Shown in pieces: positions 1 to 63,705 of a DNA stretch of 64,000 bases. How positions within the stretch are numbered: the first letter of the stretch is position 1; every line of letters starts with the position of its first letter. A program made the translations under genes and the position numbers. Source of the stretch: Campylorhamphus procurvoides (lineage: Eukaryota > Chordata > Aves > Passeriformes > Dendrocolaptidae); contig WBMV01008391.1 in assembly GCA_013396655.1 (NCBI GenBank), positions 248,001-312,000 of the forward strand, written 5' to 3'. The notes under the pieces were generated by a model. That model made no database searches. It was not told the origin of the DNA and saw nothing but the letters and a program-made list of their open reading frames with translations.

Positions 1-5932
<5,932 letters not shown>

Positions 5933-22184: not shown

Positions 22185-25100
22185 TTAGAGAAGGCACAGG
22201 CTGTCAGACGTGTTCAGGAAGTCCTGCAGGTGAGCACAGCTTTGCCGACGCAGGGTGCTGCGGCACTCACTGGTGTCTGGAATTTTCTCTACCCAGGCTT
22301 GTGCATCAAGGAAGTACTGCATCCTGAGTGAAAATGGGACAGGCAAAGAAGGTGAGTCATTATTGCTGACAGGGAGCAATGGGAAAGCGTAATCCCTGAG
22401 ATGCTGCATCCCTCCACTGAGGCACATCTGAGATCAGGAGTTATGCTAGCCAAGAAACTTGCCTGAAAGTTAGTTTCACCAGCAGGTTAACTGAGCTTTG
22501 AGTAAAGTTTGGACAGTGTCAGTGCCAAGCTGGGACAAACCTGGTTGTACTTGTGTCTTGGGTGTGTCGGATAAGCTTGGGCTAAAGTTTCTATTAGACT
22601 TTTTCAGAGTGGCACAAAGGACCCCAGTGCACATCAGTGGGACACAGTGAGAGTGAGTTCAATTTCAACAGAATATGCCAAAATGTTTCCGAATCTGTGC
22701 TGAGAAGCCATGTAACTTTGAGCATTTTACAAATAGACTGGAGAAGACTTTGGAGGCAACACCTCCTCCAGGAGATCCCAGTCTTTAGCAGACTTCTGTT
22801 GAACCAGGTCCCTGACTTAGGCACTCTGGTGTCATATAGAGATGGGGATGGGACTTTTTAAGGTTTTAGGAAGTGGCACTCACAATTTGATGGTTTCCCC
22901 CCTGCAAACTTTCAGAGGCACTACCTTTCTCCACTTCTGTGAAGGGAAATGTTTAAGATGTCTTCCTCCCTGAATATTTGATTTTGTCATACTAAATTCC
23001 TGCTCAGATAAATTCATTTTTTTCATTAAAGTGTGACAATGAGAAACGAGAAGAATATACTATTTATATGCATGATATAAGAGAAACTTTGGGAACTGCT
23101 CTTAGTCACGGTCCCACTGTTTTCTTTTGCAAACACAGGAGCTGTTTAAGGCATCTGCAGTAGATGGACCGTGTAGCTTTCCTCAGTTTCCTTTTCTAGC
23201 TGTGAGTTTTTAACCCAATAGAGTCAGGGCCAAATTTGATTCTGAGAAGTCTGGGAACCAGGCTCTGCACAGATACATGAGCTGATATATTTAGGTGGCT
23301 CAGCTGTTCCCCACAACTACCCTTTGCCTATGGGGCAAGAACTCTTTGTATTTTAGTAAATCCAGCAGAAACAGTCTGAGAAATTTGGTCCTGCCTTTGC
23401 TCTCTGGAGGTATTCTTATAAATTAGAGTATCCTGTGGATTAATGGTCCATGATATCAGCCACTGCTGCTCAGAAACGATTACACTTACTTGTTATTGCA
23501 ATCAACTGTTTCCCCATCCTTCCCCATCAGGAGGTATCGTTTGCCAGGGACCATGTTTAACTTGCATATGGAGCGTGTTAGGAACTGTCGGTGGGCACCC
23601 ACTTGGATGCTCTCATCATCAGCTGGGGGACAAGAAGAGAAAATTCCATGAATTTTCCGAGTGAAGTAGAACTGTAGCCCACAGGACACAATCCCTTCAG
23701 ATCATTTGCCCCACTGCTAAGACAAAGTGATATTTCACTTGAAAATTGTAGTTTGACGTGGGGATACATGGTACGGTAGGATACATTTCCCTTAGCATTA
23801 CTTGACAAAAAGCAAGGCACATTTGCCTTGACTGATTGTCTTGGCCTCTGCAGTAGTTATTGAAGGAGCTGTTTTCTATAGACCTTAGGACCTTTCAGAC
23901 CTTATGGAGTTTGTTTAGATCTCAGAAACTGAAAGAAAAGCCAAGGAAAATAGAGAACATGCTGTCTTCTATTTCAGATTTCTCAGGCTCAGAGTGGTCT
24001 TAAAAGCTAGCATACTAAGTTCAAATATCTTGTGGATCAACAATACTTCAGGCAGCACTAAAATCTTCCTCCCCTTAGTACATCTGACTTGAACTTCACT
24101 GATGTAGCCTTTACAATATTTCCTCTAAATCCAATACATAGGACATGTTCCTGATGTTCTCCATGTTAAAATATCATAGAAGCTTCTGGTCTGGATTCTG
24201 GCCCAGAAGATTATTCATTCAGAACTGCATTGCCCACCACAGAAGTGAGCATCCAAGGCAGATAAGAGCTGGAAAGATGCTTGCTCATCAGAACAGCCTC
24301 AGTTGATGAGGATGCTGTGTTGTTTAACTTGAACAAAAGTTTTCCAAATCCATTTGAAAAAAAAAAAAAGCAAATAACAGCAATATTCTAATTGCTTACT
24401 ATCTTTCAAACTATAATTTGAAATGTCCTCCACAACTCTGGTGTCAAAATCAACATTGAATGAGCTTAAATTATGGGGAGTGCATTACAGTCTTCTATCA
24501 GTTAAGGGAAATGTATGCAGCTTCTGCTCTCCAAAGTATCACATTACAAGTATTGCAGATCTAGTATTCAAAATAAAAGCAGAATAAAAACATTAATAAG
24601 ATTTCAGAGAATTTGACATGGATAGCTAATTTAGCTTTAAGCACATCCAAAGCACATGCAGTAATTCTATTATTAATCAAAGTAATCCAAAACCAACACA
24701 TATGCAAAAGTCTCTTTTGCTGACTCACAAGCACAAATAAGTGTTTCTGTCTGTCTTCTGAACCAATGCTTTCTTTCAAGGATTGATACTGGAATAATTA
24801 CAGCATTCCAGATAATGAGATTTTACCCTACTAATTTTCACCTATCCTTAGTGATGGCAACAGAAGCCAAACTCACTCAAAAGAGCCACAGAGAATGCAA
24901 AAAATAACAACTCTAGTTCAATCACAAGCTGATTTGGGTACAACACCTTGCTTTTTCTTTATCAACGTGGCTTTGTGCCTCCTGTCAGCCTATCCCAAGA
25001 TTGCTGAAAGCCTACTAATGCTCAGAAGCTGCATCAGACAGCAGAAACCAAAGGGGATTTAAAAGTATGTGGAAATGGGAGAAGACATCTTTTCCCTTCA

Positions 25101-32258: not shown

Positions 32259-35200
32259 TCTTCTTCTTCTGCTGTGGATATCAAACCACTCTATTTCAGA
32301 CAGGGCCTCAAATGTGCTGTTTTCTGCGGTAATCAAGTCCTCATCATCGTTTTCAGCAGAGTATTCATCTTCTGGAGGTGAGAGACACAATTAGCCATGC
32401 ATAAATTTTCTTGAGGATCTGGTATTTTGGCTTCTTTTGGTGTAAAAATAACTATCAGTTGGCAGTCATGCCATCATTGTGGGTTCTATAAAAATTTGCT
32501 GTACACTGCCTCAGTATTCCCAACTCATTCAGAGTTAGAATTTTAGGCATAACTATAGTAAGAATAACAAACCAATCTAGGTAAGAATGGGGTTCAGGCT
32601 GTGCATAAATATGTAAAGGACAATCCCTCCCTCCAAGAAGTAACTATTTGAAGAGAAAGAAAAAAAAAAAAAGGCAGACATAGACAGAGATGACGATGAA
32701 AACATACTTCAGGGGATGGAAAATACATTATTGCTCGTATGAAAAACCTATGACAGATCTGTCTCAAAGAGTTTTAAGGCCACATTGTAGGTCCCTTGTT
32801 AGCCAGGGAACTAAGCTGGGCTTTCCCTTCTGTGAAGGGAGTTCACCTCCCATTCTTCAGAGAGAGTTTCTAATAGTACCTGTGTAACTGTTAAGTACCT
32901 GTTACACCTACAGTCGTTCAGATGGTTATTATGCTATTTAAAAATAATAATGAGCAAAATGAAAAATAGCTGGGCAGAGCTCAGGACCGTCTCTCTTTTC
33001 TTGTTTCATTTGTTTTTCCCCACTTTCTGAGGTTGGAAAGCTATAAAATTATCATTAGCAGCTGGCCAAATGTGTCACCTTTGACACACAACCACTGTCC
33101 TTTCCACTCACCAGAGTACTTAATGCTTCCTTCCATTTCCACTGTCAAAATCAAATCATTGCAGGTATTGTTCTTCAGCTCAGAAGACCAGTATACCTTT
33201 AATATCTAAGATGAACACACAAACATCAAGCCACCAAAAATACCATATAAATGACAGGGGATTTACTCATCCAGGACTTCAGCAAATGTTGATGGGACAT
33301 GGAAGTGCGGAGAGAAGGTCCAGTCTCACAGAGGACTGTCATGGGTATAAGCAGGTCCCATGTGTGGGACCCCTTTGAGATAACTCTCCATTCCCAACCA
33401 CAAAGAGGTCTTTCAAACTCCACTTGCCTCTCTCAGCATTGACATTTCATAGATGTAATAAACTTAAAGACAAGAAAAATCGACCGCCCATAAGGGCAGG
33501 ATTTAGGCCACAAATTTAGGAATTTGGAGGTAGGAACACAAAGGTTGATGTCATGGCAAGTAATTTTTCACTCCATTTTCAAAAAGGGATTAAAAGTAGT
33601 CTAGTTGGACTGTGGATTTTGAATTTGCAACTTACACTCATTGTCCCGTTTCCTCTGCCGTGTACAGATACTTCAAGTTTTCTCCCAAGTTCAAACTGCA
33701 AACCAAGGGAAAAAAAAATTAGTCTGGACTCAGCATTTGAACTATTGTTTTTCTGTCATTTTGACAGTCTTCTATGCCTTTATCCCTCCAAACCTGGGTG
33801 GGGAAAACTTTTAGCTGTGAAGTTATGAGACGTCAAGTCTCATAAGATTTTAAATGTGCTGAGCTGGTGCATCTTACTCTGCTGTTTTACAGCCCCGTAG
33901 GCATATTACCAACTTCATTCTTCCCTCTGTAGCCTGGATTTGATATTTTCACAGTTCTCAGCATACTGAAGGCTGGAATAGTCCTCTTCTTCCTCATTCC
34001 CTAGCAAGACTTGGTCTCCTGGCTGCTCTTCACTGTTGGGGGAGATTCATATCACCAAAGCCCTTGAAGAGGCAGGAAAGCACCTCTAAAATGTGCTGCT
34101 TAGCACCTGGTTATTTTGTTTGTTTTTCAAAAAAGATTCAGTTGTTTTACAGATGAAATTATTTAGTGGTATTATAAGCCAATTATATAATGGTTGCTTA
34201 ACATGAAAAAACCTAGGCCAGATAATCCAGTTTCTCCTATTTGAGGGGGAAAAAAAAAGCTTGAAACTTTTGAAAAGATTGTTGTGTACCTCTATCTGCT
34301 TCTGAAACTCTTCATCGCTATCAGTCAGAATAATGCTGTAGTGATTTTGTCTGCCAGGTGTTCCCAGGTTGACAGTCAGGTCAGTGGAAGCAGTGTTCAG
34401 TGTCTGTATGCTGTATGCTGACAGAGCTTCTAAGGCCACCACTGTGTCCTAGGTGAGAAAGAAATGCAAAAAACCTAACAATTATGCCAGGTTGTCTCAA
34501 CAACATGTTGGATGGCATTATCAGTCACCTTGAACTATGCAATTTTATGCTTTTTGTTGCTTTGAAGTTCTCTTTTATCTGTCTGTTCCTACCTGCACAG
34601 ACTATTAATTTTATTTCCTAGTACTTTTAGCACTAAAGTTGTAAAATCACTGGAGTTCTGCCCTTAGATTATCATAAGGCTTCATGACCACAAAGAATCT
34701 TCTTTCCTGGCTTTTAACCATTTTATTTGGGCTCATTGTTTATTAATGAGCCCAGATCTTTAGTACTTCATACACCAAAGAAGTTGAATATTAACTGTTG
34801 TAATGCTTTCAAATCTAAACGAAAAAGCCTTTATGAGGCTTCTGTTTTCTTCCCTCCCCAAGAAGTGGTAGACAGGCACCTGTGTAGAGCAGTACCCTCC
34901 ACCGTAGTTCCTTCTTTCTGTCAGCCATGTAGCAATTGGCCTTGTGTACTCCACGTCTTTCAGGAGCAATGTCTGCAGCAGTGCATAGGCCGTGGTTTCC
35001 ACCGACACTGCGTCATTGCCATTTCCCCAGTAGCGTTGCTGCTTTGCTGCAAGAATAACTCACTCTTGAATCCCCTTTGTCAAAAATCAGTATTGTTCTA
35101 CACAAGTAGATATTTCATGTCAGAGCACTGAGGGACCACAAGACACAGATGCTGTTCTGAGACCAACAAATCAGCTGGGAAGCAAAAATAATGGAAAAGG

Positions 35201-38200
35201 AAACCCAAAATGTTCAATTTTAACTTATCCAACCATCACAGTCCAATGATCCCATTGTAGAGTGGTAGCATTATGTCTGGTGGTCCCCAAGAGGTAATAG
35301 TATTAATTATGCCCATATATCCAGCCTTGATTAAGGAGAACCATATTTCCTATGTTTAAAACTATGGCTATTAGGCCATAATGTATAGGGAGAAATTTAC
35401 CAAAGGTATTGGGAGAAATTAATAGCATGACAATGCAGCCACAGAGCCAGCTAACACGGCAGTCACCACAGGCACATGTGGGGAGGTGACATCCAGTGAC
35501 AAAGCACTCAAAACTGGCAAGGGGCTTTGAAAGCAGGTGGGCTGGAAGAGACACTTCACCTCTTGATATGCAACCCAGTCTGGGCTACTACTGTACGTAG
35601 CTATTTTCTCATCTGAAGTTTCTTCTTTCTCATTTGGCTTGGACTTTGGTTTTTTCCCACCAAGGGAAGCAGGAAATATAAATGAATATTTACTGTGATA
35701 TTGTCCCAATTTCAGTCTCAGAGAAGATCATGATCCACACTTCATTATGGTGTCACTTTATAGTGATATTAATTATGCATATTACATATTAAAACATCAA
35801 TGCTATTACACATATATATATACTCACGCCTATATAAAATGAAACATTCCTCATTTATGCGAATCTGCTTTGTTCATGCAAGTGTGCTCAAAGTGTTTCA
35901 ATTAGGAAAAGTGCTTTCTAAAGGAACTTTTAAGAATGGTTACAAGTACCTGCATCAAAAACAGAACAGTCCCTTAATTTTTCTTTCACAAATTGGTCTT
36001 CTTCACTATCAGACTGCGCAAGTGTCAGAGCATATGAAGTGATGACTGTAGAATAGCAGTCAGTACTTCTTGAAAGTTGATTTTTCATGTAAGCCACTGC
36101 TCCTCTAACCACTTGTACCTGTAAAAACAGAATGGATCCATTTGAAAAGATCACTGAGATCTAGTAACTCTTAGTGTTGGTGAGAGTACTAAGAAATTAG
36201 AACACTTCACTGTAGCAATTTTTGAGACTATTTTAATCATTTTTGCTTAGGGATTAAAGCCATTGATGATAGACTATGTAGCTCAAAGTATCTTGTACAT
36301 TAGGTCACAGCATTTTTTCCTATCCACCACAGATGTTAACAGATTTTAAACTCCTCATTTGTAGTACTTAAAGGCATAGTAAGTTGGATATAACATTGTG
36401 CAATAGTGCAATTGTGCCTTTAGACTTAAAAAGTCAAGCTTCCTACCACATCAGGTAATTTGTAGACACGGATGGTCTGTTGCAATGCTATAGTTACAAA
36501 GGCTGTCATAGCCAAATCCTCTTCTGCTAACTTAATGCCACCCTGCAAGATAAAACATTAAAAAGAAAAGTTAAATGTACAATTATATGTTTATGGTTAA
36601 ATTTAGAAAATCACCTTTCATAAAGTCAAGGATCTTGACAAACCATCTGACCACATCCCATGCAGCTTTAGCCTTTAATTTTTCTCAATAGTATGTGTCC
36701 ATCAAAAGTATATCTTCTATTCTGGCAGGCAGTTTGCATGAAAGAGTGTGAGAGATTAGGAACCCACCATGTCCTTCCGCTGATAATGAAATATTTAATT
36801 ATTTAACTTACAGTTAAAAATCTACAATTTCTCATTGAATTATTCATGGATTCAATTTCTAAGCATTAGCGGGGTGATTTTTTTTAAATTTCTCTGCTAC
36901 TCTGCATACACTAACTTGCACACAGAACTTCTCTCCTATAAAGGTGTTTGTACACCAATACTAGATCATTCCTTACCCCTCTTCTTGATAAATTAAATAC
37001 AGTGTGCCCTCATTAACTTTTTTCCCCCTGAAAGCTCTTGAATTATATGTAAAGTAGAAGATAACAATCTCAGCATGAACATGGGTCAGAAAAAACCAAA
37101 ACCCTTCGGCCAGTTCTTGAGCTGTTTGTTTTTTTTCCCCCAACAGTGTTACATCGACTGTAAAAGTTACTTTGAGGGTAAATGCTTCACTAGTTATTTG
37201 ACACAGGTCATTAATAATATTAATAGATGCTTTTTTCATATATACTCACTACAAAGGTAACTGCATTTTCAGTTAGTTTTGGAAGATGCACATTATTTTC
37301 ATAGTCTAGGTTCACGAACTGCATAAAAATTTCATGTTTCTGGACAATTATAGGGGATGTGCAGACTAAGACACTCAACTGGAAATTCTGCTTAAGTATT
37401 AATATTTTCTCTTCTCACCATGGGAGTGGTGACATACTAAAACAGGTTACCCAGAGAGACTGGGAGGTACTTGAAACTCAACTGGATATGACCCTGTACA
37501 ATCTGATCTAACTAGAACTGTTCTGAGCAGGGTCACATTTGACCAAACATACAGACCTCAGAATTAATTTTCTAAGTGCTCTATATGTGTAGCTGCAAAA
37601 ATTATCTAAGACTGGGTGAAAAGATAAAGGTGGTGAAGTGCTAGCTATGTATCTCAGACACAAAATACCTTTCAACAAATTAATTTTACATTACAGATTT
37701 TGTACTTTTTATATTGCAGATTTATTTTCTTTTGACACATTTCTTGTTACTCAACAACTCACGATATTCCTTTCAATTCCCAGTAGCCCTAAATGAGCAA
37801 CAGATTCTTCTAAATATCCATTACCCACCTGCATTGACCTGTCCAATACTGGGTGATGGTCGTGGAATGAACCATCTGCCTGCTGTTGATTAACTAAGTA
37901 GGATATCGAGCTGAGTATGTGACTGTCTTCGACACTAATGTATTCTCTGCATCTTGTGAGTACTTTAACAATGAAGGCAGTTAACCTGCACAAAAGAAAA
38001 TTTTCAAAACTTGTGCTGACATATATTTATAGAAGGCTATATAGACAGGAAAATAAGCATACTAATTTTGTACGCAGACTTATATTCAATACAGTCCACT
38101 CACTGAAACCTAGTGAGTTATTATTCAACATCCACACAAGTATTTCTACTCTGTGGCAAATACGAAATAATCAGCAGGTTAGTAATTAATCTTCTTCATC

Positions 38201-41200
38201 AAGGAACAAACATGCTTAGAGACTTTTGTGACCAACTATTCATGACAAAAGTATACGGGCAACACCATGCCCACCAGATTTTGAAAATCCACCCTCCCCC
38301 CACCAGAAAAAAACCAAAAAACTTCTGATGCATCAAAAAGTAATAGAAGTCACTTGGAAAAACCCAATCAGATAAAGAAACAAAACAAAAAGAAAACAAA
38401 CAAAAGCAAACCAAAACAAAACCATGGGGGAAAAAGAAAACACCTACCATACGCTACTGGGGGTTTCTTTAAATGTTCCATACGAGCCATCTACCTTCTG
38501 AAATTGAAGTAGTCTAGTGTAACCTAGTTGAATAGGAGAGCATATAATTGTTCAGAGAATATCCATATTTATTGGGCATTTTCCTACATCACTTATATTG
38601 ACATGAACATGTTCTCTTTCGACTGGTGGAAGAGTTCATGGAGGTGTTCACTGGTGCATTAAGGAGGAAGTGACTGGTTCAGCAGACTGACACAGAAAAA
38701 GCTCTAGGCTTAGAAGGTCCTCTGTCTTGTTTGACTTAATGGAGGCATGAAAATAACCTGAAAACTGCAGATACCTGTGGTTACAAAGCATTTTCTGAGT
38801 AGTGAATCTTGGGAAACTTATTTACCCTTATTGACAACTTTTCAAGCTGTTGGCTTTATGGGCACATTGAATCAAGCAGTATACAAAACATCATCTATTG
38901 GGTCAGACACAGCCTTAGAAATAATTAGCTGTGGCCTCTGATCTTTACTGCTATTATCATGACAAAGTCTGTATAACACCCACACAACACATTTTCCACA
39001 GTAATGAACTTCCATAAGAATATATGAAATCAGAATATAGGGATTAAATGATGCTGATAATACCAAATACTTAGGAGCAGGACCTCATGTCACTTTAGGC
39101 CATGTTAGATAAATAGGTAAAGACCTTCATGAAGCAACAGTAGCATGCTTTTAATCTCTATTTATATACTTATTTTTCACTAATGAAATGTGTGACACAT
39201 GTCTGAATATCAGGAAGACAGGCACGTTATATTGCTTTGTGCTAGAAGCACACCACTACAGTTAGAAAGATCACCTGTGTGTGCTGCTACACTGAGAATT
39301 CTCAGGCTCTGTGTTAGTATCTGTGAGCTGGAATACCGTGGGTCCTGGCTTTGCTGTACATTAAATACCACCTTTGGATCACATCTTGGAGTGGACTCTT
39401 CAAGAAGCAGACTTGAAGGTGTCCTGTCCTTAGGGAAATTTCCTCCCTGGGTTGGTCCAAGGCTGCTGAAATCATTCTAACTTATGTAATGATGAGTACA
39501 GGAATGTGGAAAGGAAAGTGTCACTATCATGACTAGCACTGGGAATTTCTTTTGGGATACTTCTGTTGATAGCCACAGACAGAGATATTTACATCCCAGC
39601 TGTGCATCCTAAGCACTGTCTGTGATCAATGGGGAGAAATAAGTATTTTTAGGATATAATTCATCTTTATCCATTTCAAACATCTACATTAGGAGGAAAT
39701 GAACAACTGGCCTTTGCTATCCATTTCCTCCAAAAAGAGTTGACACTGATCAGCTCAGATTTTACTTTCTACTTCTAAATTCAACGATAGAGAGGATGGA
39801 TGGTGAATGTCGATACTGTCCAGTGTCAGATGTTGGCAAATAGTCTCCTAAGTCCTCCTTACAAATTCTGTTTCTCATGTTTGTTTGCAGTTTGTCAGAG
39901 GTATTTCTTTGTGGCTGTGACATTGGTCACTCTGTTAGCAAGTAACAAGTCAGTGTGCGGTGCAAAAGGATAACAAAGATCCCATCCTTTGGACTCTGCT
40001 TTGTTTTGTGGTTTGGTGGAGGGTTTTTTGTTTTAGTTTGCATTTTTTGTTTGCTTGGTTTTTTTGCATACCTTGTTCAATCATACTAATGGCTTCCTGC
40101 TTCCTTTCAGGGCTAAAGTTCACCCACTGCTCACTGGCATCCAAGTACTCAATGGCGTAGACTGCAGGGGCCATTTTCACCATTGTTTGTTCTGCACAGC
40201 CTGTGGGCACTTGAATAAGTTTCTCAACTCCAGTGAGACTAAGACAATTTTCAACAGACTCACCCATAGTATTCCCTGTTGTAAAAAAAACACAAGCCAT
40301 AGTACATATTGTATTTAAAGCTGGCTGGTATAATACGAAAAAAGGTAGTGCTAACTATAGGTTGACATTCCATCATGGCTAGATGCTCCTCACTGTTAAA
40401 CACTGTTTTTAGCTACCTAAGACTTTGTTAAACTGAAGAAGAGCAAGGATGAGGTGCTAGGCCTTGGGAAAGCTGAAGAAAGGAGGCTGGGATAGTGAAG
40501 GAGCATGAAAGAGAAAACATCCTGAGGCTACTGGAGGCAGGGAAGCAAGGAAAGTGGGGAAAACTGGTGCATCGAGTTTTGTCTGGAAAATTCCTGTCAA
40601 ACCAGACCTGACCCTCCCACAGAGGTAAAGAAAGACTGTGCATTTATCAAACAAAACATTTTGTGCATGTTTTTTCCCTCTGTGGAATTATTTGATAATT
40701 GATGTTTGAATTTTCTTGTACGTCCTTGTACAACAATGAGAAACATCCTTGTACTTTAGAAAAGGGATTTGAAATGGAAGCCAATATCATTTGTGTCACA
40801 GATGAATTATTTTGAATTTTCTAGGAAAAAAAGTATTTATCACTAATAAAATTACTTGCTAATAAATCTTTCTAAAATATTTTTGCATGAGTATATATAC
40901 GTATGTTAAACAGTTATTTGATTAAATGAATATATGATTGTACATCTTCTCTTTAGAAAAATGGAAATTTCCAGAATTTATACATCAGAGTCTGGCATTC
41001 TTATTTCTGAAAGCTAAACCAGAATTTTAGAAACCTAAATGCTGTGTGGGGTTATTAGAGAAGCTGAACTCTTCCCTTCACCTCTGGCCTTCCCATAATT
41101 TTAGTCTGAGCACAGTGAGGAAGATTAATCACATCAAGCCATTATATCCATTACAAGTAAGAAGAAGTAATTAGAAAGAGGAAAAGGTACTGGATGAACC

Positions 41201-44200: not shown

Positions 44201-47200
44201 TTGCCCTCTGGAGTCACTGCCATGGTTTTTGATAGGTAAAATTTGGCAGGAGTGCTTGTAGCTTTTGTGAGTGTAATGTGGCCCGGTTAAAACACAAATG
44301 GTTGTGTTAAACAATGGTTAAAACACAAGGACTTTCCTGGCTTTCTGAAAATAGACTCCATGCCCATCACTGTTCCCCTGGAAGAGCCTTCCTTTCCAAA
44401 GAGGAGTGGTCAGTACCAAATGGACCCTTTGTCCCTCCTGCATGGTCCTGGTCAACTTCCAGGAGCATCCAGAGAGTACCACCTGGGAACCTGGGTTCTC
44501 TGTCCAGCCCTTGCTGGTCCTCTGCCGGTTTCCTAGTGCTCTTCTCTGTCTTTCTTTCTGACCACAGACTTTCATGTTTTCATATGGCCAGAACTTGGTC
44601 CCAGAATTATTCAAAGAAAAGCAGTGTTACTACTACTACCTTTCTTATGGCCATGTGAAAGCTAAAATGAGGTGCTTTATAAAGAAAAAAAGAGTAAGAC
44701 AGTTCTGACTGTATTATCTATTTTCCTTTAGATCTCACTTCATGTTGCTTTTATAACTATAAATCTAGCCCATAAATTCCAGCTGGGCTTTAATATGACA
44801 TAAAAGAGTGAAGGAAGTGTCATGATTAGAACACTTAGTGTTTGTTCACTACAGGCTATTTTACTCTGTCAACATAACACTATATCTCTCTTTACAATAC
44901 TTATACCTTTTTCAGGAGATATGCTTATTGCCTGAACTTCCCAGGTAGTTATAGAGTCAGGAGCAAAGTTTTCTACTCTGAAGAAACACAAAATAAAATA
45001 CATTAGGAAGGATGTACAAAATGTATTAGGAAGGATGTATAAACTATAAACACTGTCATTTGCTAAAATTAAGTACTGCAAGGGAAAAACATATTCCATT
45101 GGTTGTGGAGACCAAGTACTTGCAGATATACTGAAGTCCTCTGCATCAGATAACACAAAAAGTTGACTTTATATATATATATATTACTGTACAAATTTAG
45201 ACACACAGAGTCAGGCAATACCGTACCTATGGTTTCCAGGGTTTTCCACTTCTTCAAAATGCCACCACCAGCTCTCAGGAAAATAACTACGCAACTTGAC
45301 AGAGGTTTCATCAAAGAATTCTTCATGTTCGTTGTATTCTGCAAAACAGCAGTGGAGTTTCTGTCTGTGAGCCCTTGGCTGCTACCCTTACGCTGTCTTG
45401 CAGGGAGTCAGCCTGTCAGAGCATGAAAAATGCTCTGAATGAAAAGACTTTCCTTTGTTTCATCTTCTACATTAAAAAAAAAATAAGTTGAAAAAAGGAG
45501 AAGCACTGAGCAAACCTTGTCAATGAACAAGAGATAATGCCTTTTTCCAAGTTCAATAACTACATGCTACCAAATGAGAAATCAGTTCCCTTTAATAATG
45601 CATAGGAAAGTTGTTCCCATGGTCCCATATTTGTGAAAGAATGAAGGGAAATCTGTGAGAAATTGTAACAGAAATTGCACTTAGAAAGGGGTCTTTTCTG
45701 TGCAAATTAATTTTTTTTTTTTTGTAACACGAAGTAAAATGTAAACATGCATAGTCAGACATAGACTGCTAAGAAGAAAGGAAGAGAGAGAGAAAATTAT
45801 TCCTGGCTGAAGTGGCCCCTTCTCATGACAAGGTGTTATGAAGGTACTCGGGTGTTATAACAGTAGTAGCACTAATAAAACAGTCATGAATCTGAGACCA
45901 CTTAGACCCCTGACAACCACCCCCTTCTCTGCTCCACTGCCTGTGGCCTCCCTGGGGCCATCAGCTCCTCCACAAGGCTGTTCTGGGGCCAGCAGTGGCT
46001 AAGGTGATTCCTGCCTTTTCTCACTCCAAGAAATTATCCGACTCCCCCCTTCCCAGTGTGCGGGTGTGAAGATGCCATGCTGTGTGGGCGCTGCATTACA
46101 CCTGTGCCCTCTGCAATGATGCTGTGGAAATTTCCTCCCCAGCCCCACAGCAGTAAATGTCCCCCAACCCTCCCTTGCCACCACATGAAGGGTAAAAGGT
46201 GTGGCAGCTGTATGCCACTGTTCTTTACGTCGTGCCAAGCCCACTCTGTTCCTCCTCTTCGCCTGCCTCCTGAGGGCTGTGGCTTTCTCACAGCAGTCCT
46301 GGAACGCGTTCCTGCATTGGCGGGAGCCAGACACCTTTGTTAGCCTTTTTGCACAAGGAAGCCTCATGGGATTTAACTTCATTCCATCTTGACAGCATTT
46401 TTGTAGATCAGTGTTTTGGTATCTGCTGGCTGCAATACAATTAAAGCCCGAAATTAGTGCTGTGTGAGTAGCAATAAGTGTAAAAGTGTTCATTGTGCTC
46501 ATTCCTGTCATTCTTTGCCATTAACATTAGTTTCTATTGCAACAGTCAAGCTTCAGCAGGGACCTGTTCTCCATCCTAAAAAGAGTCCACAAACACAGGA
46601 GGAAAGCACAGGCCTTTTGGCATCCTAGATATTCTGTTCTAAGGTTTCTCTTCACAGTCAGACTGTGAAATAAAAACACTTCCTTGGCAGGTTGGAATTA
46701 GATATCTTGATAGAAATATCCATGGAAGTATTTTCCTTCTTGAAGAAAGAGCCTGACTTCAAAAGTAAGGAAAATCCCAGCTTCAGGCTGTTGAGTCTTC
46801 TGTCAAGGAAATGTCAATGCATGAATTTTTTTTTCCAATTTAAACCAAGTATTATAACAACTCGTCTCTTAATTGATGCACAAAGTCCAGAATTAGTATG
46901 ACTTTGAAGAAAAATATCAGGAAAAAACTAGGATCTATGAAACATTTTCTGGCCATATAAATAATTTTGGAAAGCCTCAGAGCCATGATGTTTTATCTAA
47001 TAGAAGCACTTAACACTTGAGATTGTAAAGGGGTGAATTATTTTCCATTTGCAGCCATTCTTTGGGGCTTTTTGGCTTTGTTTATTTTTTGTTTGGTTTT
47101 CTAGTTTAAGGGGGGGAGTGCAAGTTGTGCTTTTTTTTTTTTAGCTGCTTTGATGAAGGATGCATCAGGTCACACTGAATAGCATAAACGGCTGTGCTAG

Positions 47201-50200
47201 GTTATGTCACTTAATGCAAGAACTGGGACTAAGGACATCTTGGTATCCTCTACTGTGCCATCACTTCTAGCCCTCTAGATCCCAGCCAGATCCCTTTGCC
47301 TCCCCCTCCTAAGCCTTTCAGGGCACTCAAATGAGCAGACGTACCAATTCCTGACATTTTCTTCTGAAAATCCAAAGATCTCTTCTGCCTTCTTGTACCG
47401 TGGAGGCATTTATATCCTAGGAAGGCAGAACAGAAGAGCTTGTCATGGTAAGATGACAGGAACAGCCTGATCATTCATGAAGACCCATTTTAGGACTCAT
47501 CTCATTCACAGAAGACTGACAGTTTGATGAGTTACTTTCCAGCACTGGCCAAATGTTGCCTGCCCCAGCTGAGGTGGTCACTGAAGGACCAGCACCCACC
47601 ATCTGGGCTGTCAGCATCCATTGGAAGAACAGAAAATCCAAAGGCAAAGGAGATTTTACAACATGATGATAATATGTTCTGGGTTTTAAGCAATCAGTTA
47701 TGACAGATCTATAGTGGACTTCTACAAACATGTTAAGTAAAGGGAAGAGTGCACTTACCTTCCCGAACACTGGATTGAATTGTATCTGATAAAAAAGCCA
47801 GGCCAACATCAGTAAAAACTTGAACACTATTTGCACCACCACCCGCAGAACATCCAAGATCATATGAATTCATAGCATTAAATACCTGCCAAATAAAATA
47901 GCCCAGATGGACTGTACATGCTTGTAAAAGGTTTATATATATATAAGAAAAATTCTTGTAGCCTTTAATTTGCACAAACAAGACAAACTAGTGGTACAAA
48001 CTGCTCTTGGAAATTGAGATTAAAGCTGAGGGATGTTTTACTTAGGGAGTGCTTTCAAGTAATGCTTTTATAATTTAAAGACTTGTCTGCCATAGCATGG
48101 AAATTCCCGTCTTAAACATACCATTCATCTGAAATAGATGATAAATTGGAAAAGAAAAAACATTTTCAAGTTTTGCAATCTGTGTTTAAGCAATTAATAG
48201 CCATTAATTACATTTTGATCCTCTTATTAGTCATGGAAAATTTTGCTTGAGTAGTAGATACGATATTTTCTTTTACAAATATCTTACTTTTTTGGCTGTA
48301 AGCTTATTTTTCTTATTCAGAATAAAAACTGCTTTATCAACCACAGCTAAGGCAACTTTTCCCACATGGTCCATTTCAATCTGTAACTTGATGAGGTCTG
48401 TTGGTTCATATGTGTCTCGTTCTGTTCTCACTTTAATCTAGATAGAAAAGATTGAAACAAAAATATCAAATTTTTTAATGAAAAGTGAAGACACTTTGGG
48501 CCAGGAATGCTGTCAACTGTGACTGTCAGCAGTCAGATGTTGGGGGATGTTCCTGTTTCACGGTGCTTCTGCCTGGGATCCTGCATTTTGGAAGAAAATA
48601 GGTGGAAATATTTCCCACTGGAAGAAATCCTGAGGAACTAAAAGAGGTGTCTTGCAGAATATTGGATGATGACTTTCAATGACACATAAACACCAACACA
48701 AATTAAAAGTATATGTAAGGGATTTGCTGAATTAGGGTCTGCAACATAATTTTCCAGTGGAAAAAAAATTGCCATGAAATACAGGAAAAGACTAATTAAT
48801 ATGCAAAATTAACTGACTTAAACCAGTCTGTAATAATACTACCTGCTTTCAATTGCACACTTGAATTTTTTAACATTACTGGGTAAACTCAGATCTGATT
48901 CTAATGTAAACACTTCTGTGGTTTAGGAAGGAGTAACCATGGTGATTATTAAATTAATAGGGAATCAGTAATAGAAATGCCAGCTTGAACATAACTGAGT
49001 TTTGTCATCGTATAAACGAATTGGTTTGCGTGTTAGAGATGGATAATTTTTCTTGAGAGCTTTTTTCCTCCCAATGGACTACCACATTCTTTTTCCAAAA
49101 CAAATATTTTCATTGGAAAACCCCCAACATTTTAGACAGCTGACATTTTTCAGCAGTTGTGTTTCATGCTATTGGGAAAAATTCCCATGTCTTTTTTTTT
49201 TTTTTCATTTTACCTTATGGTCTCAAAAAGGAGGAGGAGGAGAAAGGTGGAAGAAAGGCTTAGAGGTGCTCCTATTTTATCCATTTTATAACGTAAAATA
49301 ATTTTTAAGTGTTTTTGAGATGCTACCAAATCTCGGAAAATTACTTTTAAAAGAAATAAAAATTTTGAAAAACTACTTCAAATTTGTATTTTTTCCCAAA
49401 AAAAGGCTTTACTTTCTTTCATGGGACACATCTACAAAAAGACAAAGTTATAAAGAGAATCTACCCCTCAACAATCCTATTGGAGTTTCCTTGTGGATTT
49501 CTAATCTATAGACACTCACAGAGGGAGATTGATCTGTACGAAACAATATTTTTCATCTCTTTGAGGCACAACCTGTCCAGTGGAAGAACAGTATATCTCT
49601 GCCATAACTCTTGTGAGCTTTTCTGAATTATACCTTCCAGCATGAATACTGATGACTCCCTTTTGTCAATAAAAATTATGTCTTTCACTTTTTAACCCCA
49701 GGCCTTCACTCGCTTTGCTCATCCCCCATGTTTTTGTTTTCAGTTTGCAATACAATAGCAGAAGCTCTGAGCATGGAAGTACCTTTCCTTCACAGACATC
49801 CATAACATCCACCCATACAGAATCAGCAACAATGTCTCGACGGCCCTCGTTTTCAACAAAGTAGTAAGCTAAAAAGCGAAAGGCGGGCACCATCTTCTCT
49901 GTGATTTTAAGGTTTATTATTTTATTTGAAGATGGAACCCTTCCCAAAAGCTCAGCTTGTCCCTTCACCACAACCTGCAAGGCAGAAACAAACAGAAATA
50001 AAGTACCGTCATACTGTGAATACACTGCAGAATGGGCATTATGTTGCATAATTTTACATACACCCCCATATATATATATAAAATTTTCTGACACAATTTC
50101 TGTTTAAAATATATTCTCTGCTAATGGTTGGCACTTAACCTTTTTAACTCTTGCCTGTATCCCAGTAGCCTGGAGATGACTAGCACACAGTGTGATGGTT

Positions 50201-56200: not shown

Positions 56201-59200
56201 TAAATGAAACCCTTCCAGAGTGGAAATACTCTTCCTTAACTTCTCTTCCAAAAGTGGTGTGCTTAAAGTAACTCTTCCTTTTCCATTTCGAATCTAAAAC
56301 AGAAGTGAAAAAAACCAAACAAAGAAGAAAGTGACAAGCCTTTACTGGTTTGTTGCCATTCAAAACAAAAAAGTGCTGCTTGTATCATTACTACTTTATT
56401 ACAGCGTTCTCAGTTTCCAGAATTTCTTACAATATGCAGCTTAAGTATGATAAATGGGATTAGTTCTATTGAATACTTACTGATAGCTGTTGCTCCAGGC
56501 CTGGAATAAACACTTTGTTCTCATTTTCATCAATTATGCCAAATCGCACGTATGCAGCACCTTGAATCTCTTTTCCATAAGAGTGTCTTTGGAAAGAAGA
56601 GAAGTGAGGAGATGGATAATTAACTTAATAAAAAGCAAGCATAAATCAGACTAATCATTTTATGCTGAAATAAAATTGGAATATTTGGAGGCATCCTATT
56701 TGTAACTAATAGCTTGAAAACAAAAATTAGTCCCACTCACTCATAGCTCAAAGACTTTTACTGACCTGTGTACCAAGGAGTGATTTCAAATGCAAAGATA
56801 TATATGGAGTAAATCACATTGGCAGAATCACATTGAGATACCACCTGTCAAAGTTTGCACCAAAGTGATTAAAACTTCATTTCAATTTTTTTTAACAAAT
56901 TAATGAGCACTTTAGCTGCATAGTGAGGTCTCACACAACTCATCCCCTTCAGAGGGAACAAGGGAGGTATCCAGTTTATTTAGCTTGGATGAATGCCTAA
57001 TTCCTTTCTATGAGACCTAATTAGCAGAGCTTTTAAAATAAGGAACCATAGAATCATTTCAGGGACTGATATGAAGTATTTGGTGCCTCTGAAAACCTCC
57101 AGAGACAGATGCTACCAGCTGAAATTTTAATTCCTGCAATAGGTAGAGCAGATATCCTCTACCCCATGTCTCTCCTACAGATTTAGGCCGTATAGCATAA
57201 GGTCCTCTTGTAAATGAAATACTTATCAGGTAGGTATCTGGCTAGAACACTTCTGAATGTTCTATATAGGTCATAGAGAGAGAGGATAGGGCATGTTGTT
57301 GCGCTTGGCTCCTTACTCAAGGAAACCCTGGCAGATGGCATCCTCCCACAGAACAACGTGCAATGTGCTACATGAGACCTGTCTTGGCCATGGTGTTGAC
57401 TCTTGCTTGTGGAAAACCTGCTTCGTCTCAGTTCTGCAATGGCTTATCTTTGTTTAAGCAAAGCCTCTTTCAAATTGACCTGATCAGCAGCACTGATATA
57501 TATCAATGAAAGCAACTGAGAGGCAGTTCTTATGAAAACTGCATTAAATGCGAGAACTAATAACTGTGGAAAACAATAGTCAATATACCAAGTAACTTCA
57601 TTACATGCATGGCCAGTTCAGAGAAATAAGTTCAATTATCAGGAATTCCATATGCTGATTTTGATAAAAGTCAGTCAGCACCGCTAGGACGTTCTCCAAT
57701 AGAGAAAAGAATGGTATCCAGTTATTAAGCCCCAATTTTTCTTCTTAATTATGATGGTAATGAGTAGTCAAATATATATGAAGTTCGTAAACTCAAAATT
57801 GAATGCTGCAATAGCATTGAGAAAACTTTAGCAAGGATTAAAATATTAAAGCCAATGATTTAATATCACTTCATATCAAAGTATCAACCAATCATGACTA
57901 AAGCTAGTAATGATTCAACAGAACCAAATAAAGAATTGAAGGTGACCCAGAGGAAATTAGAAGAGTTGAGTTTGTTCAGCCAAGCAAAAGGAGGTGGTTA
58001 CAGGATTCTGTCTGCTCTCTCAAGGTGTGCTGAGAAAGGAAGGACCAGCATGATCAAGGGCAGATGGCAGAAGTCCAACAGGGTATAAACTGGCCAGGGA
58101 TCAATTTAGATTACAAATAAAACTTGAGAGAACCAGGGCAGTGGGGGATCAGTCTTGCAGTTTGATACAGTGCCAGGGTCCATGCAGCAATTCTAGCAAC
58201 CGCAGCCTGTTTGGACCAGGTTAATTAAATTAAATGAGTACAGTGCTGTGTTGGAGGTTGCAGTCACCTGGCAGAGCCCAGCCCACTCCTGATCTACTAA
58301 ACGCCACTGCCCTCCACAGCAAGGCAGTCACATGAATACCTCGGGTTGACCTTGGTTCATGCTTCTTCCCAAAAAGCTTTCAGAAATTGTTCATGGAGTA
58401 CTGTATGGATGAGGTCAAGCCTGTGCCATGCACCAGCTGAGCCATTGGTAGCCATGCTCTGTGGCTCAGGATTCTGTCCTGGAACTGTTAATTTACTGCC
58501 CAAGTGGATAGAATAACTTCTCTGGTATCATGCTCAAATGAAGACAAAATTCCTAATGTATGAGGATAATGTTTGAGTACAATAGTATATTGTTTGCTGT
58601 TCTTATCTTGGAGGGCTTTACAAACACAAGGTGAAATATGCATGATTGCAGCAGTAATGATGCATTAGTCACATGCACTCAGCTTGAACTAGAGAATCAT
58701 TAAGTCTGCAAAATGTTCAGCTATTAGCCCAGCACTGCCAAGTCAACCACTCAACCAGGTTCCTAGGTGCCACATCTTCATATCTTCTAAATATCTCCAG
58801 GGATGGTGGCTCATCCACTTCCCTGGGCAGTCTGTTCAAATGCTTGACAGCCCTTCCAGTGAACAAATTTTTCCTAATATCCCAATATCCAACCTCCCCT
58901 GGTGCAACTTGAGGATATTTTCTCTTGTCCTGTCAATTGTTACCTGGGAGAAGAGACCAACCTCCACCTCACTACACCCTCCTTTCAGGTGGTTGTACAG
59001 AGTGATAATGTTCCCCCCGAGCCTCCTCTTCTCCAGGTTAAACAATCCCAGCTCCTTCAGCCACTTCTCATAAAACTTGTGCTCCAGAACCTTCCCCAGC
59101 TCTGTTGTCCTTCTTGTAGTGAGGAGCCCAAAACTGAACACAGGATTTGAAGGGCAACCTCACCAGTGCCAGTACAGGGAGACAATCACTACCCTGGTCC

Positions 59201-62200
59201 TGCTGACCACAGTATTGCTGACACAAGCCAGGATGTCACTGGCCTTGCTGGCCACAGATAAATGTTATTAATGATTACTGGATATTTAACTAAAGGCTAC
59301 TATAAGCTGACTGAATTACAAGGTTAGTTATTGTCAGTGTTAACAAAGGCTCAAAGTTTGGTTGTACAGACTTAGATTTTTTTATTCTTATTTGTGTATC
59401 ACATTAGCAATTTCTATACTTAGATCTCTCCACCCTTCTGTATTGACTATCTTCTCTCTTCCATGCCCATCAGCTACTGAGATAGACACAAACTATCCAA
59501 CAGTGACTTATCAATAAGATATTCGTATACTCTTCAATTATGTGTATGTTCCTAAAAGGCAATACTCAAAGAAGCTTTGACTATGAAACAATGAAATATC
59601 TTAATAAAATTAAACAAGATATTCTGTAAAACTAGTAAGTTATAAGAACTGAACTTCACTACGAAAGTATCTCCCAACAATGTCACATGTGTATACTTAT
59701 ATATTATTCAAAAATAATTGCAAACCATTAATACTTAAAATACTAAAAGTGAATCATATTAATAAACTTTACAGGTCAAATGTAAATAATCATTACCTAG
59801 TAAAATATAAACAGTTTGCTTTACACTATCTTGGGTAATTGCTACCATACAAAAATTTGCCCAATATTTAACACTAAATGTACTTAACAGTACTATCTGC
59901 AATAACTGTGTGATCCTATTGTTGGTTTTGTGGTAAAGAATGTTAAGGGATATGGTGAATCAACCTCAAAAGCAATGAGGTGCTGACTTCTTTTTTAAGG
60001 AGTTGTCTTTAGAGCCAGTCTAACATTACTTGCTGATACTGGGTGTTTAGCTCTCTGCTGACACATCAGAATTACCTGGAAATAAATCTTAGCTTTTGTC
60101 TAGATAGGGAGAAATAAATAGAATAACAATTTCAGTGTTATGCAGATAACGCAGAGTACCTCATTTTAGAAGATATGCTTCTTCCATATCAACTATCCAG
60201 TGTGCTTGACACTATCCTAAAAACCTACTCTATTTGTTGGCATTAACTAATATTTTAAACATATAAAAATTAGGAACACACAGAAACAAACAAAAAAATA
60301 TTAAACATGAGCAAAAAGGTGGTTGGACTCCTTGTTCCTTTGAAACTGAGTAGATTTCTCCCAACTATAAAAGAAGGCCAGCTGCTTCCACCTGCCTGTT
60401 CTCATTTAATAAAATTTACCAGCCACAAAGCACAACATGCTTATTCAATTTCAGTTCAGTCTGATTCTTCAAAAATACTAAAATTATTTTGATGGGTTTT
60501 CTGACAGATTGATTGTCTGACTTCTTATGTTACTCTTTGTTTGATGCCATTCTAATTTGGCATGGGACCAGGTGTAACTTATTCTCCACTGAGCCCTGCC
60601 CCATGGTCTAGTCAGTCTGAGAGCTTTGTAGCCATGTCTCATCCAGACTAGTGTCACACTACTGTGCAGCAACAGAGGTGTGTAGTGATGTCCATGGAAA
60701 CTCCTCTGATTAATTGTATTTGTTCACCTGGAAACATTTCTGCATAAGCTCATTACTCTAAAGAAAGCACCACCTTATTATTTGCAAACTTTACTGGGTT
60801 TTGAAAAAATTCCATGCCCTAACTTGAATCCATCTATACCTGAATGACTTTAAATAGCGCATTAGAACATTTCTAAATGTTTAAACCAAAGAGGATAAAG
60901 AAAACCAGGTGATCAGTTTGCCTGGAATCTTACCTAGCAACACAGAGGAGCCACCTTTACTAGCAAACTAAAATGTTCAGAAAATCTTGTTCCAGCTTGA
61001 TCACCATGACTTGGATCCAGGTAGAATTTTACACTGATATCTCAAGTCAGTAGTGGACACAGAGATTATATAAGATTAGTCAGACTCAAGTAAAGCCAGA
61101 AGAGAACTGTTAATGACAAGAAAAAGGAAGAAGCTGCAAAGTTCACAATCTACTTATCCGCCTCCTGAAACAGTCCAGCTGTGAGCACACCTACTTTGCC
61201 TCGATATCAAACACAAAGTTTTCATTCCAGATGTGGTAGTATGGCTGAAGTGGGATGAGTCTGACTTCAAAAGATGGAAGTTCTGCATGGAAAAAAGAAG
61301 GTGAAAGGTCATAATATGTGAATTTCAAACATACCTTAAACTCCTGGCATCTGTCAACACTCTCTGAGAGGATGTGGCTGCACTCATGGGGTGTTTTAGT
61401 TTGAATCAGCGATGCACTTCTGAAACAAATTTGATCATCCTCCCTTGTTCTGCTTTGCTTCACATAGCAGAGCAGGCTTTGAGCACACAAAATTTATTTA
61501 TTTACAGTGAAATTAAGCTAGAGGATAAACTCCAACAATGACTAAGCATCAAGTGCCCTAGACTAGAAGCAGTCTCAAGTAAACCCACCCTGAGTTGGGT
61601 GGAGTGGGGGCATAGGATCCTCAGCATCAGCTGTGTCCCTCTGAATTGGCTCCCATTAAGCCAAAATATTTGCTCCTGTGGATATAGTCAGGGTAATTTG
61701 CTCCTGCACACGGGTGTTTGTAGAGTCTCCACTATTCTGTTACACCTGTTAGCTAAGGCAAAACCAGTTTTGACAAACAGAGATTTTCATACAGTCCTGA
61801 GATTTTCTTTTGTCTTTAAGAAAAAAAACCCAGCAAAACAACTAGCCCACACTGAAGTTTAAAAGAAGGCATAAGTTCAGTGCAAATAAACTAAGCAATT
61901 TCTTATCCCAAATTGTTAGGATTTTACATTTTTACTTTTCCCACAGTGTCCTTACTGCTTCTTAAAAAAAGCTTCCTTGAGTATAGGAAGTATAGTATAG
62001 GAATAATTAATAAACGTCCAGACTAAAATCTACTGAGAGAAAATGGGCAGGGTTTTTTGGTTGGTTGGGTTTTTTTGGGTTTTTTCCTTCTCCTAATCTT
62101 CACTGGAAACTTTAGGAGAATTGCAATGACTTTAAAACTGAGCTAATATCTTTTTGTTTTCTTTTTTTTTTTCCCCTGTAGTGGGAGAGCCCTTACAATG

Positions 62201-63705
62201 TTTTGTGAAAAATGTTAAAAAAGTTACTAAGTGTGTATAGAAACCAAAGGTGTTTCCTTTTGAAAATAAAAGTGGAAGCCACACAGAACCAGAGTTTTCC
62301 TTCTGTGCATCAGAGCTAGCAAAGATGCACTGAAACACTATGAAACTTGTCCTTAGTACCTAACTACAGCCAGGTTTAATCACTGCAGTATGTCTTTTAA
62401 CATACAATGGGTAACTTCATATATTTAAAATGCAAATTTAATATTCTCTTACCGTATTTTTTAACTTCAAATTCAGCAGAAACATTAGACATTTCATGTT
62501 GATGAAACCAGGCTTTGATTTTCCAGGTTCCAGGGCTTAAGTTCAGATTCAGCACAAAATAGTTAATTAGCATTCCTCAGATATTTTATGATGCCAATAT
62601 ATAAATTATCACTAAACATTAATATTTTCCTTACTTTGATCTCATCCCAAACTAATTTTTTTAATAGATTTCTCTTTGCTGGGAGGAGCCAGCAACATAT
62701 TTCCAAATGTCCCAGGAAACACCTAAAATAACTGTATGAGGAAGTGCAAGGTAACATACTTGCAAACCACATGTAACACATATTACCTCTAGAAAGTCCT
62801 CAGAAATAGAGAACTTATCAAATATTTCCTATAGTTTATCTTCACTGTGATATCAAAATCAACCTAGTATGCAAGAGCACACTATTAAGTAAAAGCCTGA
62901 GTGTTTGAAATAATTAATATTTAATAACTAAGAGGTAATTAATGACACTTTGCAAACTAAGGCCTTGCAGAAGTGCTCTCTTGAATGAAGCCATACATTT
63001 GAACAGATATTTAAGCAGTTTGTTAAATTGTTCCTTATCAGGATACATGTTGCCAATTATAGCCTATTAACATTAAATTCTGGACTTATCTCTCCAAGAT
63101 GTGGTGCTTCAGGGTAAAAAGATATTAACCATAAGCTCAATCTTTGCCCCACGGTGAGAGAATGAAAATTTTGAAAGGCAATTCTATCAATTCAGCAGTT
63201 AAAAATCTTAATCTACAGGTTTCCATGCACAAGGCCCAGCAGTAACGTACTCAGCAACATCTGGTATTTCAAAATGTTCACTGAACACTGCTTTTATTTT
63301 CCGGTCTGACTTTTTAACCACCATTCCTTTTGAATTCTGTTGAGAGAGAAAAAGCAAACGTGATGACGTACCAAGTGTCAAACATTTACATCCAAAAGCT
63401 CAAGTTCATATACTAGTCCCATGGAAGACAAAATGCTTTGCTTACTTTCCTACTTTAGTACTCACATGTCACATTTCCCTCCACGCTCCTGATATGGGCC
63501 AAAAATGACTAGACTTTTCTCACTATGTGTAAACTCTGAGGGGAGTCATAGCTATAGTTTTGTTTTTGGATCCTTTTTGCAAAGCTTTCATAGTGCTGAA
63601 GAAGCACTCATCAGCAGTGTTTTTGCATACTTACTAGCACGACTACTGTAACCGTGTCATCTGCTGGCCTCATAGCATTGTCCAGAATGAAGATCCTGTA
63701 TCTTA
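22185..63705 (-). CDS. Complement C4-like protein, 38 exons (5' end outside window)
   Basis: Minus-strand gene, 4610 coding bases, 1536 residues, stop TAA at 22185-22187. All 38 exons have GT-AG borders and matching phases. Domain order: macroglobulin (MG) domains, beta-alpha site RRQKR, anaphylatoxin, more MG, CUB and thioester domain (GCAEQ), MG8, acidic linker plus RRRR, C345C/netrin domain. Identity as C4 rather than C3, C5 or A2M rests on the two processing sites (three chains), the motif QQQADGSF followed by PVLDRSMQ, and a C-terminus aligning with human C4 ([20 protein letters not shown]). The 71-base first exon seen corresponds to human exon 4, so three exons with the signal peptide lie beyond 64,000. 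Family role: a secreted plasma protein, cleaved by C1s or MASP-2, whose C4b fragment bonds covalently to targets and builds the C3 convertase. The exons are listed under the chain entries. I give no symbol because orthology to MHC C4 is not established. Confidence 0.95.
32206..32371 (-). CDS. Exon with acidic Tyr segment and alpha-gamma site RRRR
   Basis: Begins [12 protein letters not shown], an acidic run with one Tyr, like the tyrosine-sulfated part of human C4 although with fewer Tyr. It also has an NST sequon and then HSRRRRDV; the four Arg codons are at 32259-32270. Human C4 has RRRR followed by EAPK at the same place. Cleavage would give a gamma chain of 287 residues (291 in human). 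Confidence 0.92.
32259..45338 (-). CDS. C4-like gene: alpha-chain exons (human exons 15-30)
   Basis: Exons, in order of translation: 45227-45338, 44907-44977, 43878-44017, 43097-43309, 41940-41991, 41364-41444, 40072-40275, 38448-38523, 37829-37985, 36447-36542, 35950-36118, 34880-35046, 34290-34448, 33636-33695, 33112-33205 and 32206-32371. They encode residues 595-1249. The chain begins [11 protein letters not shown], matching the acidic start of human C4b alpha', then [22 protein letters not shown] and [22 protein letters not shown]. The thioester domain follows ([20 protein letters not shown] to [20 protein letters not shown]). Between exons 25 and 26 the roughly 25-residue Pro/Ser-rich loop found in human C4 is absent; AKQQRYWGN joins directly to VETTAYALL. 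The donor of exon 28 is GAGT|gtaagt; a GT two bases upstream would break the frame. Confidence 0.93.
37440..37550 (+). repeat. Degenerate CR1 fragment
   Basis: 'AACAGGTTACCCAGAGAGAC' followed by a line of CR1 3' region words ('AATCTGATCTAACTAGAAC'). Plus strand, within the intron between C4-like exons 23 and 24. Diverged, with ragged ends. Confidence 0.65.
37829..37985 (-). CDS. Exon with the isotype-determining residue (PVLD)
   Basis: Encodes LTAFIVKVL, then [12 protein letters not shown] and [10 protein letters not shown]. The final residue of PVLD (Asp959, codon at 37841-37843) aligns with Asp1106 of human C4A (PCPVLD), the position that is His in C4B (LSPVIH). An Asp at this place favours direct attack by amino groups, so amide-bond formation is predicted. 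Borders: tgtgcag|GTTAA and ATGCAG|gtgggt. Confidence 0.9.
40072..40275 (-). CDS. Thioester exon of the C4-like gene
   Basis: 68 residues containing [15 protein letters not shown]; Cys844 and Gln847 of the visible protein (codons within 40187-40201) would form the internal thioester. C3, C4 and A2M usually have GCGEQ; here the middle residue is Ala (GCA). Both bond-forming residues are kept, so the thioester is probably functional. Downstream [20 protein letters not shown] is typical of C3/C4. Borders: acaacag|GGAAT and GAACAAG|gtatgc. Confidence 0.93.
42893..43045 (-). repeat. CR1 fragment beside C4-like exon 18
   Basis: 'GAGCTGGAAGGAACCCACAA', then 'CAAGCCCAACCCTCAGCCCT': a minus-strand CR1 tail of a subfamily different from the copy at 19327. 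It ends within about 50 bases of the exon 18 donor at 43096. Confidence 0.85.
46229..47378 (-). CDS. C4a-like anaphylatoxin (end of exon 13 plus exon 14)
   Basis: Exon 14 (46229-46429) plus the end of exon 13 encodes residues 517-594: 78 residues between RRQKR and a C-terminal ...VGLAR, close to the 77 of human C4a. The six-cysteine anaphylatoxin pattern is intact: CCQDG, then RLPC, SRQC and QDCC. The C-terminal Arg needed for receptor-type activity and for C1s/MASP cleavage is present (R594, split from the next residue by the exon 14/15 junction). The segment is very basic towards its end ([11 protein letters not shown]). Exon borders: ttgcag|CCAGC and GCACGAC|gtaaag. Confidence 0.92.
47379..47393 (-). 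other. Beta-alpha chain processing site RRQKR
   Basis: Five codons AGA AGG CAG AAG AGA (residues 512-516), followed by SLDF. It aligns with human C4 RKKR followed by NVNF, the furin-type site that separates the beta and alpha chains. It fits the R-X-K/R-R rule and should be functional. Confidence 0.85.
47379..63705 (-). CDS. C4-like gene: beta-chain exons (human exons 4-13)
   Basis: Exons, in order of translation: 63635-63705, 63251-63336, 62453-62535, 61195-61282, 56481-56586, 56170-56293, 54109-54224, 53231-53398, 52282-52479, 49783-49974, 48288-48437, 47759-47885 and 47345-47416. They encode residues 1-516 of the visible protein, covering most of MG domains 1-6. Diagnostic stretches: [71 protein letters not shown] and [14 protein letters not shown]. 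The largest intron (56587-61194, 4.6 kb) carries a CR1. The chain ends at the RRQKR processing site. About 155 N-terminal residues are missing, judging from human C4. Confidence 0.93.
51735..52200 (-). repeat. CR1 fragment in a C4-like intron
   Basis: Starts 'ATAGAATCATAGAAATAG', then 'TCTAGTTCAACTGCCTGCTC' and ends near 'CTGGACCCCCTCTG'. Minus strand, several hundred bases, diverged. It ends about 80 bases from the donor side of exon 9 (52282). Confidence 0.85.
57038..57130 (-). repeat. Possible short CR1 remnant
   Basis: 'ACCATAGAATCATTTCAGGG' resembles the CR1 terminus in reverse complement; the rest is too diverged to be sure. Confidence 0.35.
58691..59260 (-). repeat. CR1 fragment in the largest C4-like intron
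   Basis: About 570 bases of minus-strand CR1. It begins 'AGAATCATTAAGTCTGC', continues 'TTTTCCTAATATCCCAATAT' and 'GAGCCTCCTCTTCTCCAGGT', and ends 'GGCCTTGCTGGCC'. This is the longest copy in the window and includes part of the region upstream of the usual 3' tail. Its sense strand keeps a 101-codon open stretch (58836-59141), which is not a gene. Confidence 0.92.
59261..61194 (-). other. Rest of the 4.6 kb intron between C4-like exons 7 and 8 (human numbering)
   Basis: AT-rich, no exon with both splice sites and C4 similarity, no further repeat recognised. The exons on either side (61195-61282 and 56481-56586) join in frame to give EAK-HSYGK, matching the human QARYIYGK region, so nothing is missing between them. 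Confidence 0.6.

Follow-up and report, generated by a model that had tools for sequence, protein, structure and literature searches.

The C4 gene and its neighbours

The window, by which we mean the whole stretch of 64,000 nucleotides analysed here, corresponds to positions 248001-312000 on a contig of 1.14 Mb, part of the 1.02-Gb assembly of Campylorhamphus procurvoides. Along the contig lie PROSER1 (plus strand), STOML3 (plus strand), a complement C4 gene (minus strand) and then a putative 3'-end exon of FREM2 (minus strand). The mapped gene parts are:

1789 to 3777, plus strand: open frame with the large PROSER1 exon (protein search with 587 residues of the frame)
11989 to 19887, plus strand: STOML3, seven exons, Band_7/SPFH domain (spliced alignment; Band_7 E-value 1.6e-31)
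63705 down to 22185, minus strand: C4 exons 4-41, 38 of the 41 exons (spliced alignment, Pfam, best solved match human C4-A)
66700-66636, 65769-65577 and 64563-64383 in extended window coordinates, minus strand: C4 exons 1-3, past the window edge on the same contig (gene model)

The C4 gene model was obtained by spliced alignment of human C4A to the window and the continuation of the contig, followed by correction by hand. The query, taken as human C4A, has 1744 residues, the length of PDB chain 9qj4_A. The automatic model had 44 exons, of which four were rejected (two at the 5' end, one at 35174-35127 with a GC donor, and a spurious last one) and two were extended (36118-35950, and the final exon to its stop at 22185), while one was added. 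Exon 1 was picked from a signal-peptide scan in which it ranked third, and both its N-terminus and the hand-set junction of exons 28 and 29 match all eight bird orthologues shown, with few substitutions. The corrected gene has 41 exons, presumably the same number as human C4, and encodes 1684 residues with a single stop at the end. All 40 introns are GT-AG, and the two alternative frames of the spliced sequence hold 86 and 143 stops. The structure of the C4 gene is thus intact, and the model reproduced the earlier description of the window as holding 38 exons in one frame between 63705 and 22185, with no internal stop.

As the first-pass annotation had stated, PROSER1 and STOML3 are the neighbours. 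The 587 residues searched from the PROSER1 frame are 92-96% identical to their ten best matches, which are bird PROSER1 proteins (one labelled hypothetical protein), and 68% identical to a human PROSER1. For STOML3, 280 of the 291 residues of the human protein align to the window without a gap. The plus-strand STOML3 ends 2.3 kb from the stop of the minus-strand C4 gene, so that the two genes are arranged tail-to-tail, as had been noted. On the other side, past the window edge and some 20 kb further on than C4 exon 1, lies an exon that is probably the 3' end of FREM2; the two putative FREM2 exons had no Pfam match. The C4 gene therefore has the neighbours expected of a non-MHC C4: STOML3, identified (like PROSER1) by search or alignment, and a putative FREM2. 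By inspection, no MHC gene was recognised in the listed open frames around the C4 gene.

Two further features were observed. A minus-strand exon at extended coordinates -15983 to -15498 is NHL-repeat-like, with no Pfam match; it is perhaps NHLRC3, which would lengthen the gene order shared with human chromosome 13. A short minus-strand open frame at 58720-58932 appears to resemble the terminal part of a protein from an avian mobile element.

The encoded protein

The following features were placed on the encoded protein, all on the minus strand:

47379 to 47390: RQKR beta/alpha processing site, residues 659-662 (gene model; predicted from sequence)
46230 to 47378: C4a anaphylatoxin, residues 663-740, 78 residues from two exons (gene model; ANATO domain at 685-720)
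40187 to 40201: thioester motif GCAEQ, residues 991-995 (gene model and bird alignment)
37841 to 37843: catalytic residue Asp1107 (C4A / D-type), within a ten-residue stretch (alignment)
32259 to 32270: RRRR alpha/gamma processing site, residues 1394-1397 (gene model; predicted from sequence)
22188 to 32258: gamma chain, 287 residues, with the C345C/NTR domain (gene model and Pfam)

The protein matches 11 Pfam families (MG1-4, A2M_BRD, ANATO, A2M, TED, the C4 CUB, the receptor-binding domain and NTR), which together give all the domains of the C3/C4/C5 family, among them the anaphylatoxin, thioester, CUB and C345C domains. The C4-specific CUB model, CO4A-B_CUB_C, scored 28.1 bits against a cut-off of 27. 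The lengths first reported for C4a (78 residues) and the gamma chain (287 residues) are unchanged in the corrected model, and the second basic site that would give the gamma chain is present as RRRR at 1394-1397.

The sites were compared among 121 bird C4 sequences. RQKR is found in 111 and a near-identical basic variant in the remaining 10, while the alpha/gamma site reads RRKR in 110, RRRR in three and other basic variants in eight. GCAEQ is common to all 121. The window C4 protein has 33 cysteines; at 30 of these positions cysteine is found in at least 100 of the 121 sequences and at 29 in at least 115, the positions below 100 being Cys11, Cys1071 and Cys1682.

Relation to known C4 genes

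A protein search covering 5.8 billion proteins returned 608 matches to the window C4. The 120 listed are all bird proteins with 75-92% identity, named C4 in 116 cases, uncharacterized in two, CO3 in one and hypothetical in one. These 120 listed bird proteins show that this gene is widespread in birds. In a tree, the window gene clusters with those of Sakesphorus, Grallaria and Formicarius (support 0.998), a placement that makes a suboscine passerine the very probable source. A bird and mammal tree was built from 121 bird sequences, the window's included, and 21 mammalian C4 sequences (20 of the 120 listed, and human). All 121 bird sequences group together (support 0.932), as do all 21 from mammals (support 1.0); a tree of bird C4.2 and mammalian C4 of this kind does not date the duplication.

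The window C4 is 77% identical over 1682 aligned residues to the chicken non-MHC C4 (chromosome 1; C4.2 / D-type). Like the window gene, the chicken gene has an Asp catalytic residue and GCAEQ, and it lies, as does chicken PROSER1, on a contig of chromosome 1 size; the two proteins differ by ordinary divergence, and no other difference was seen between them. Chicken C4 is annotated on a 196.2-Mb contig and chicken PROSER1 on a 196.4-Mb contig, sizes that fit chicken chromosome 1 in two assemblies. Human C4A/C4B has the domains and processing sites of the window C4, and human C4A shares its Asp; the human sequence is 39% identical to the window C4 over 1637 aligned residues. The human genes lie at a different locus, MHC class III.

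The chicken gene has been published. A 2021 review places a non-MHC C4 on chicken chromosome 1, reports that it is expressed better in blood than the MHC C4, and states that the lineage leading to placental mammals lost it; the review also cites Nonaka et al. 2017 (PMC8813856). A 2020 paper names C4.1 and C4.2, maps chicken C4.2 to chromosome 1, describes the homologous human chromosome 13 region as being without C4, and says that very few species keep both C4 genes (PMC7768046). The legend to its Figure 5 names STOML3 and FREM2 among the C4.2 neighbours, FREM2 being listed for both loci. The paper also describes a C4 tree, and reports that gar and zebrafish c4.2 lie in similar surroundings to chicken C4.2 and share its thioester motif. 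It favours one early duplication of C4, citing Nonaka et al. 2017 for the alternative of two duplications (PMC7768046). In a duck MHC paper, a C4-A-related expansion is reported in duck (PMC10845735).

Taken together, the window gene is almost certainly the usual non-MHC complement C4 of birds (C4.2 / D-type), orthologous to the gene on chicken chromosome 1. Since the non-MHC C4 is published in chicken, the gene is already known, and what is added here is this species alone. The earlier suggestion that a second C4 lineage persisted in sauropsids and disappeared in mammals holds in outline; this lineage has been published, and it is older than the sauropsids, as the gar and zebrafish c4.2 genes indicate in the published account (PMC7768046). 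The value of the locus is mainly confirmatory: it shows the ancient non-MHC C4 of birds, their second C4, with gene and neighbourhood intact in one more species.

The search for a second C4 and the alternative readings

The first-pass annotation had also allowed that the gene might be a relocated only copy, that is, the MHC C4 moved here as the sole C4 of the species. Three genome-wide scans agree with such a reading, as they found C4-like exons on the window's contig only: one with the A2M domain (18 of 18 candidates scored), one with the TED domain (63 of 63 scored) and one with primate C4 protein (27 of 36 scored). However, C3 likewise went unfound in these three scans of the whole assembly. 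Every bird should have C3, which makes it probable that the assembly lacks sequence, and the failure to find an MHC C4 there says little. Moreover, the chicken has both the orthologue of the window gene and an MHC C4, as the review states (PMC8813856), and the gar and zebrafish c4.2 genes sit in like surroundings according to the 2020 account (PMC7768046). The relocation is thus unsupported, and we consider it very improbable. An NTR scan listed 10 matches, all of them on other contigs; because it missed the window's own C345C domain too, it has no bearing on other C4 copies.

Several contigs were tried as the site of a second C4 and rejected. By best solved match, the piece on contig C2610 is C5, that on C1576 is CD109 and that on C1895 is A2ML1-like. 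On contig C1846, three of the seven distinct A2M-domain exons were searched, with A2M or A2ML1 the best match for all, and the seven are nearer to each other than to the exons of C4, C5 and CD109. Contig C1214 is presumably CPAMD8-like. Contig C1846 carries, between 198732 and 477929, eight A2M-domain matches of A2M/A2ML1 type (L001-L008). The exons of L001 and L002, some 29 kb from each other and in opposite orientation, encode the same 81 residues, owing either to a recent inverted duplication or to a copy made in assembly.

The chance that the contig is chimeric, or that the gene is a retrotransposed or decayed copy of C4, is negligible, and no point in its support was found. The 40 introns refute the retrocopy, the frame is intact, and the 120 bird proteins listed of the 608 are 75-92% identical to the window C4. 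That chicken C4 and PROSER1 both lie on contigs of one size class, about 196 Mb, is evidence against a chimeric contig, as is the published legend that puts STOML3 and FREM2 near C4.2 (PMC7768046). Neither of the observations that had been named as fatal to the first interpretation was made, the one being a sole C4 adjoining MHC genes and the other a chimeric contig; the neighbours identified are PROSER1, STOML3 and a putative FREM2. Equally negligible is a misreading of another thioester protein (C3, C5, A2M or CD109) as C4: although the domains are common to the thioester families, the best solved-structure match is human C4 at 1142 bits, above C3 at 894 and C5 at 673, and the protein has the RRRR alpha/gamma site and matches the C4 CUB model.

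Predicted function and the catalytic residue

For the avian non-MHC C4 in this window, processing, specificity, expression and role would be expected to follow those of the named families and the chicken reports. The C4 precursor would be secreted, with cleavage at the RQKR and RRRR sites yielding the beta, alpha and gamma chains. The predicted C-terminus of C4a is at GLAR, which we take to be the C1s/MASP-2 cleavage site; a cut there by C1s or MASP-2 would release C4a and expose the thioester at Cys992. In C4A, a catalytic Asp favours amino groups. The window C4 has Asp there and not His, so its thioester would likewise attack mainly the amino groups of proteins and immune complexes; the resulting C4b would nucleate the classical/lectin C3 convertase. 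C4A-like chemistry has been described for the chicken gene in one of the two papers on it. The review describes the human C4A/C4B pair as a recent duplication that re-made a lost specificity (PMC8813856). The window gene offers a clean example, with no new principle, of C4A-type chemistry on an unlinked gene, a chemistry that the human MHC pair evolved anew at a later time.

The GCAEQ motif, in place of GCGEQ, was considered as a novelty and dropped, because it stands in all 121 bird sequences and also in 34 of the 120 mammalian C4 sequences listed, and because a Gly-to-Ala thioester change is reported for ray-finned fish and elephant shark in the 2020 paper (PMC7768046). A literature search for GCAEQ together with thioester returned no paper, which shows that the string is not spelled out in the papers searched.

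The catalytic residue, Asp1107, is the one expected of the non-MHC C4 (C4.2 / D-type). Among the 121 bird sequences, which are predicted proteins, this position is Asp in 117, His in two (Notiomystis cincta and Panurus biarmicus) and Asn in two (Catharus ustulatus and Phaenicophaeus curvirostris). Among the 120 mammalian C4 sequences listed of 899 matches, a primate-rich sample, it is His in 114, Asp in four, Gln in one and a gap in one. It is possible, though we hold it rather doubtful, that the non-MHC C4 has no fixed catalytic isotype in birds and that repeated, independent, lineage-specific switches of target chemistry have occurred; if so, they may fall in lineages in which the MHC C4 changed or was lost. 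In a shark, a D-type C4 is reported from within the MHC class Ia region; D-type and a non-MHC location are therefore not always coupled (PMC10751288).
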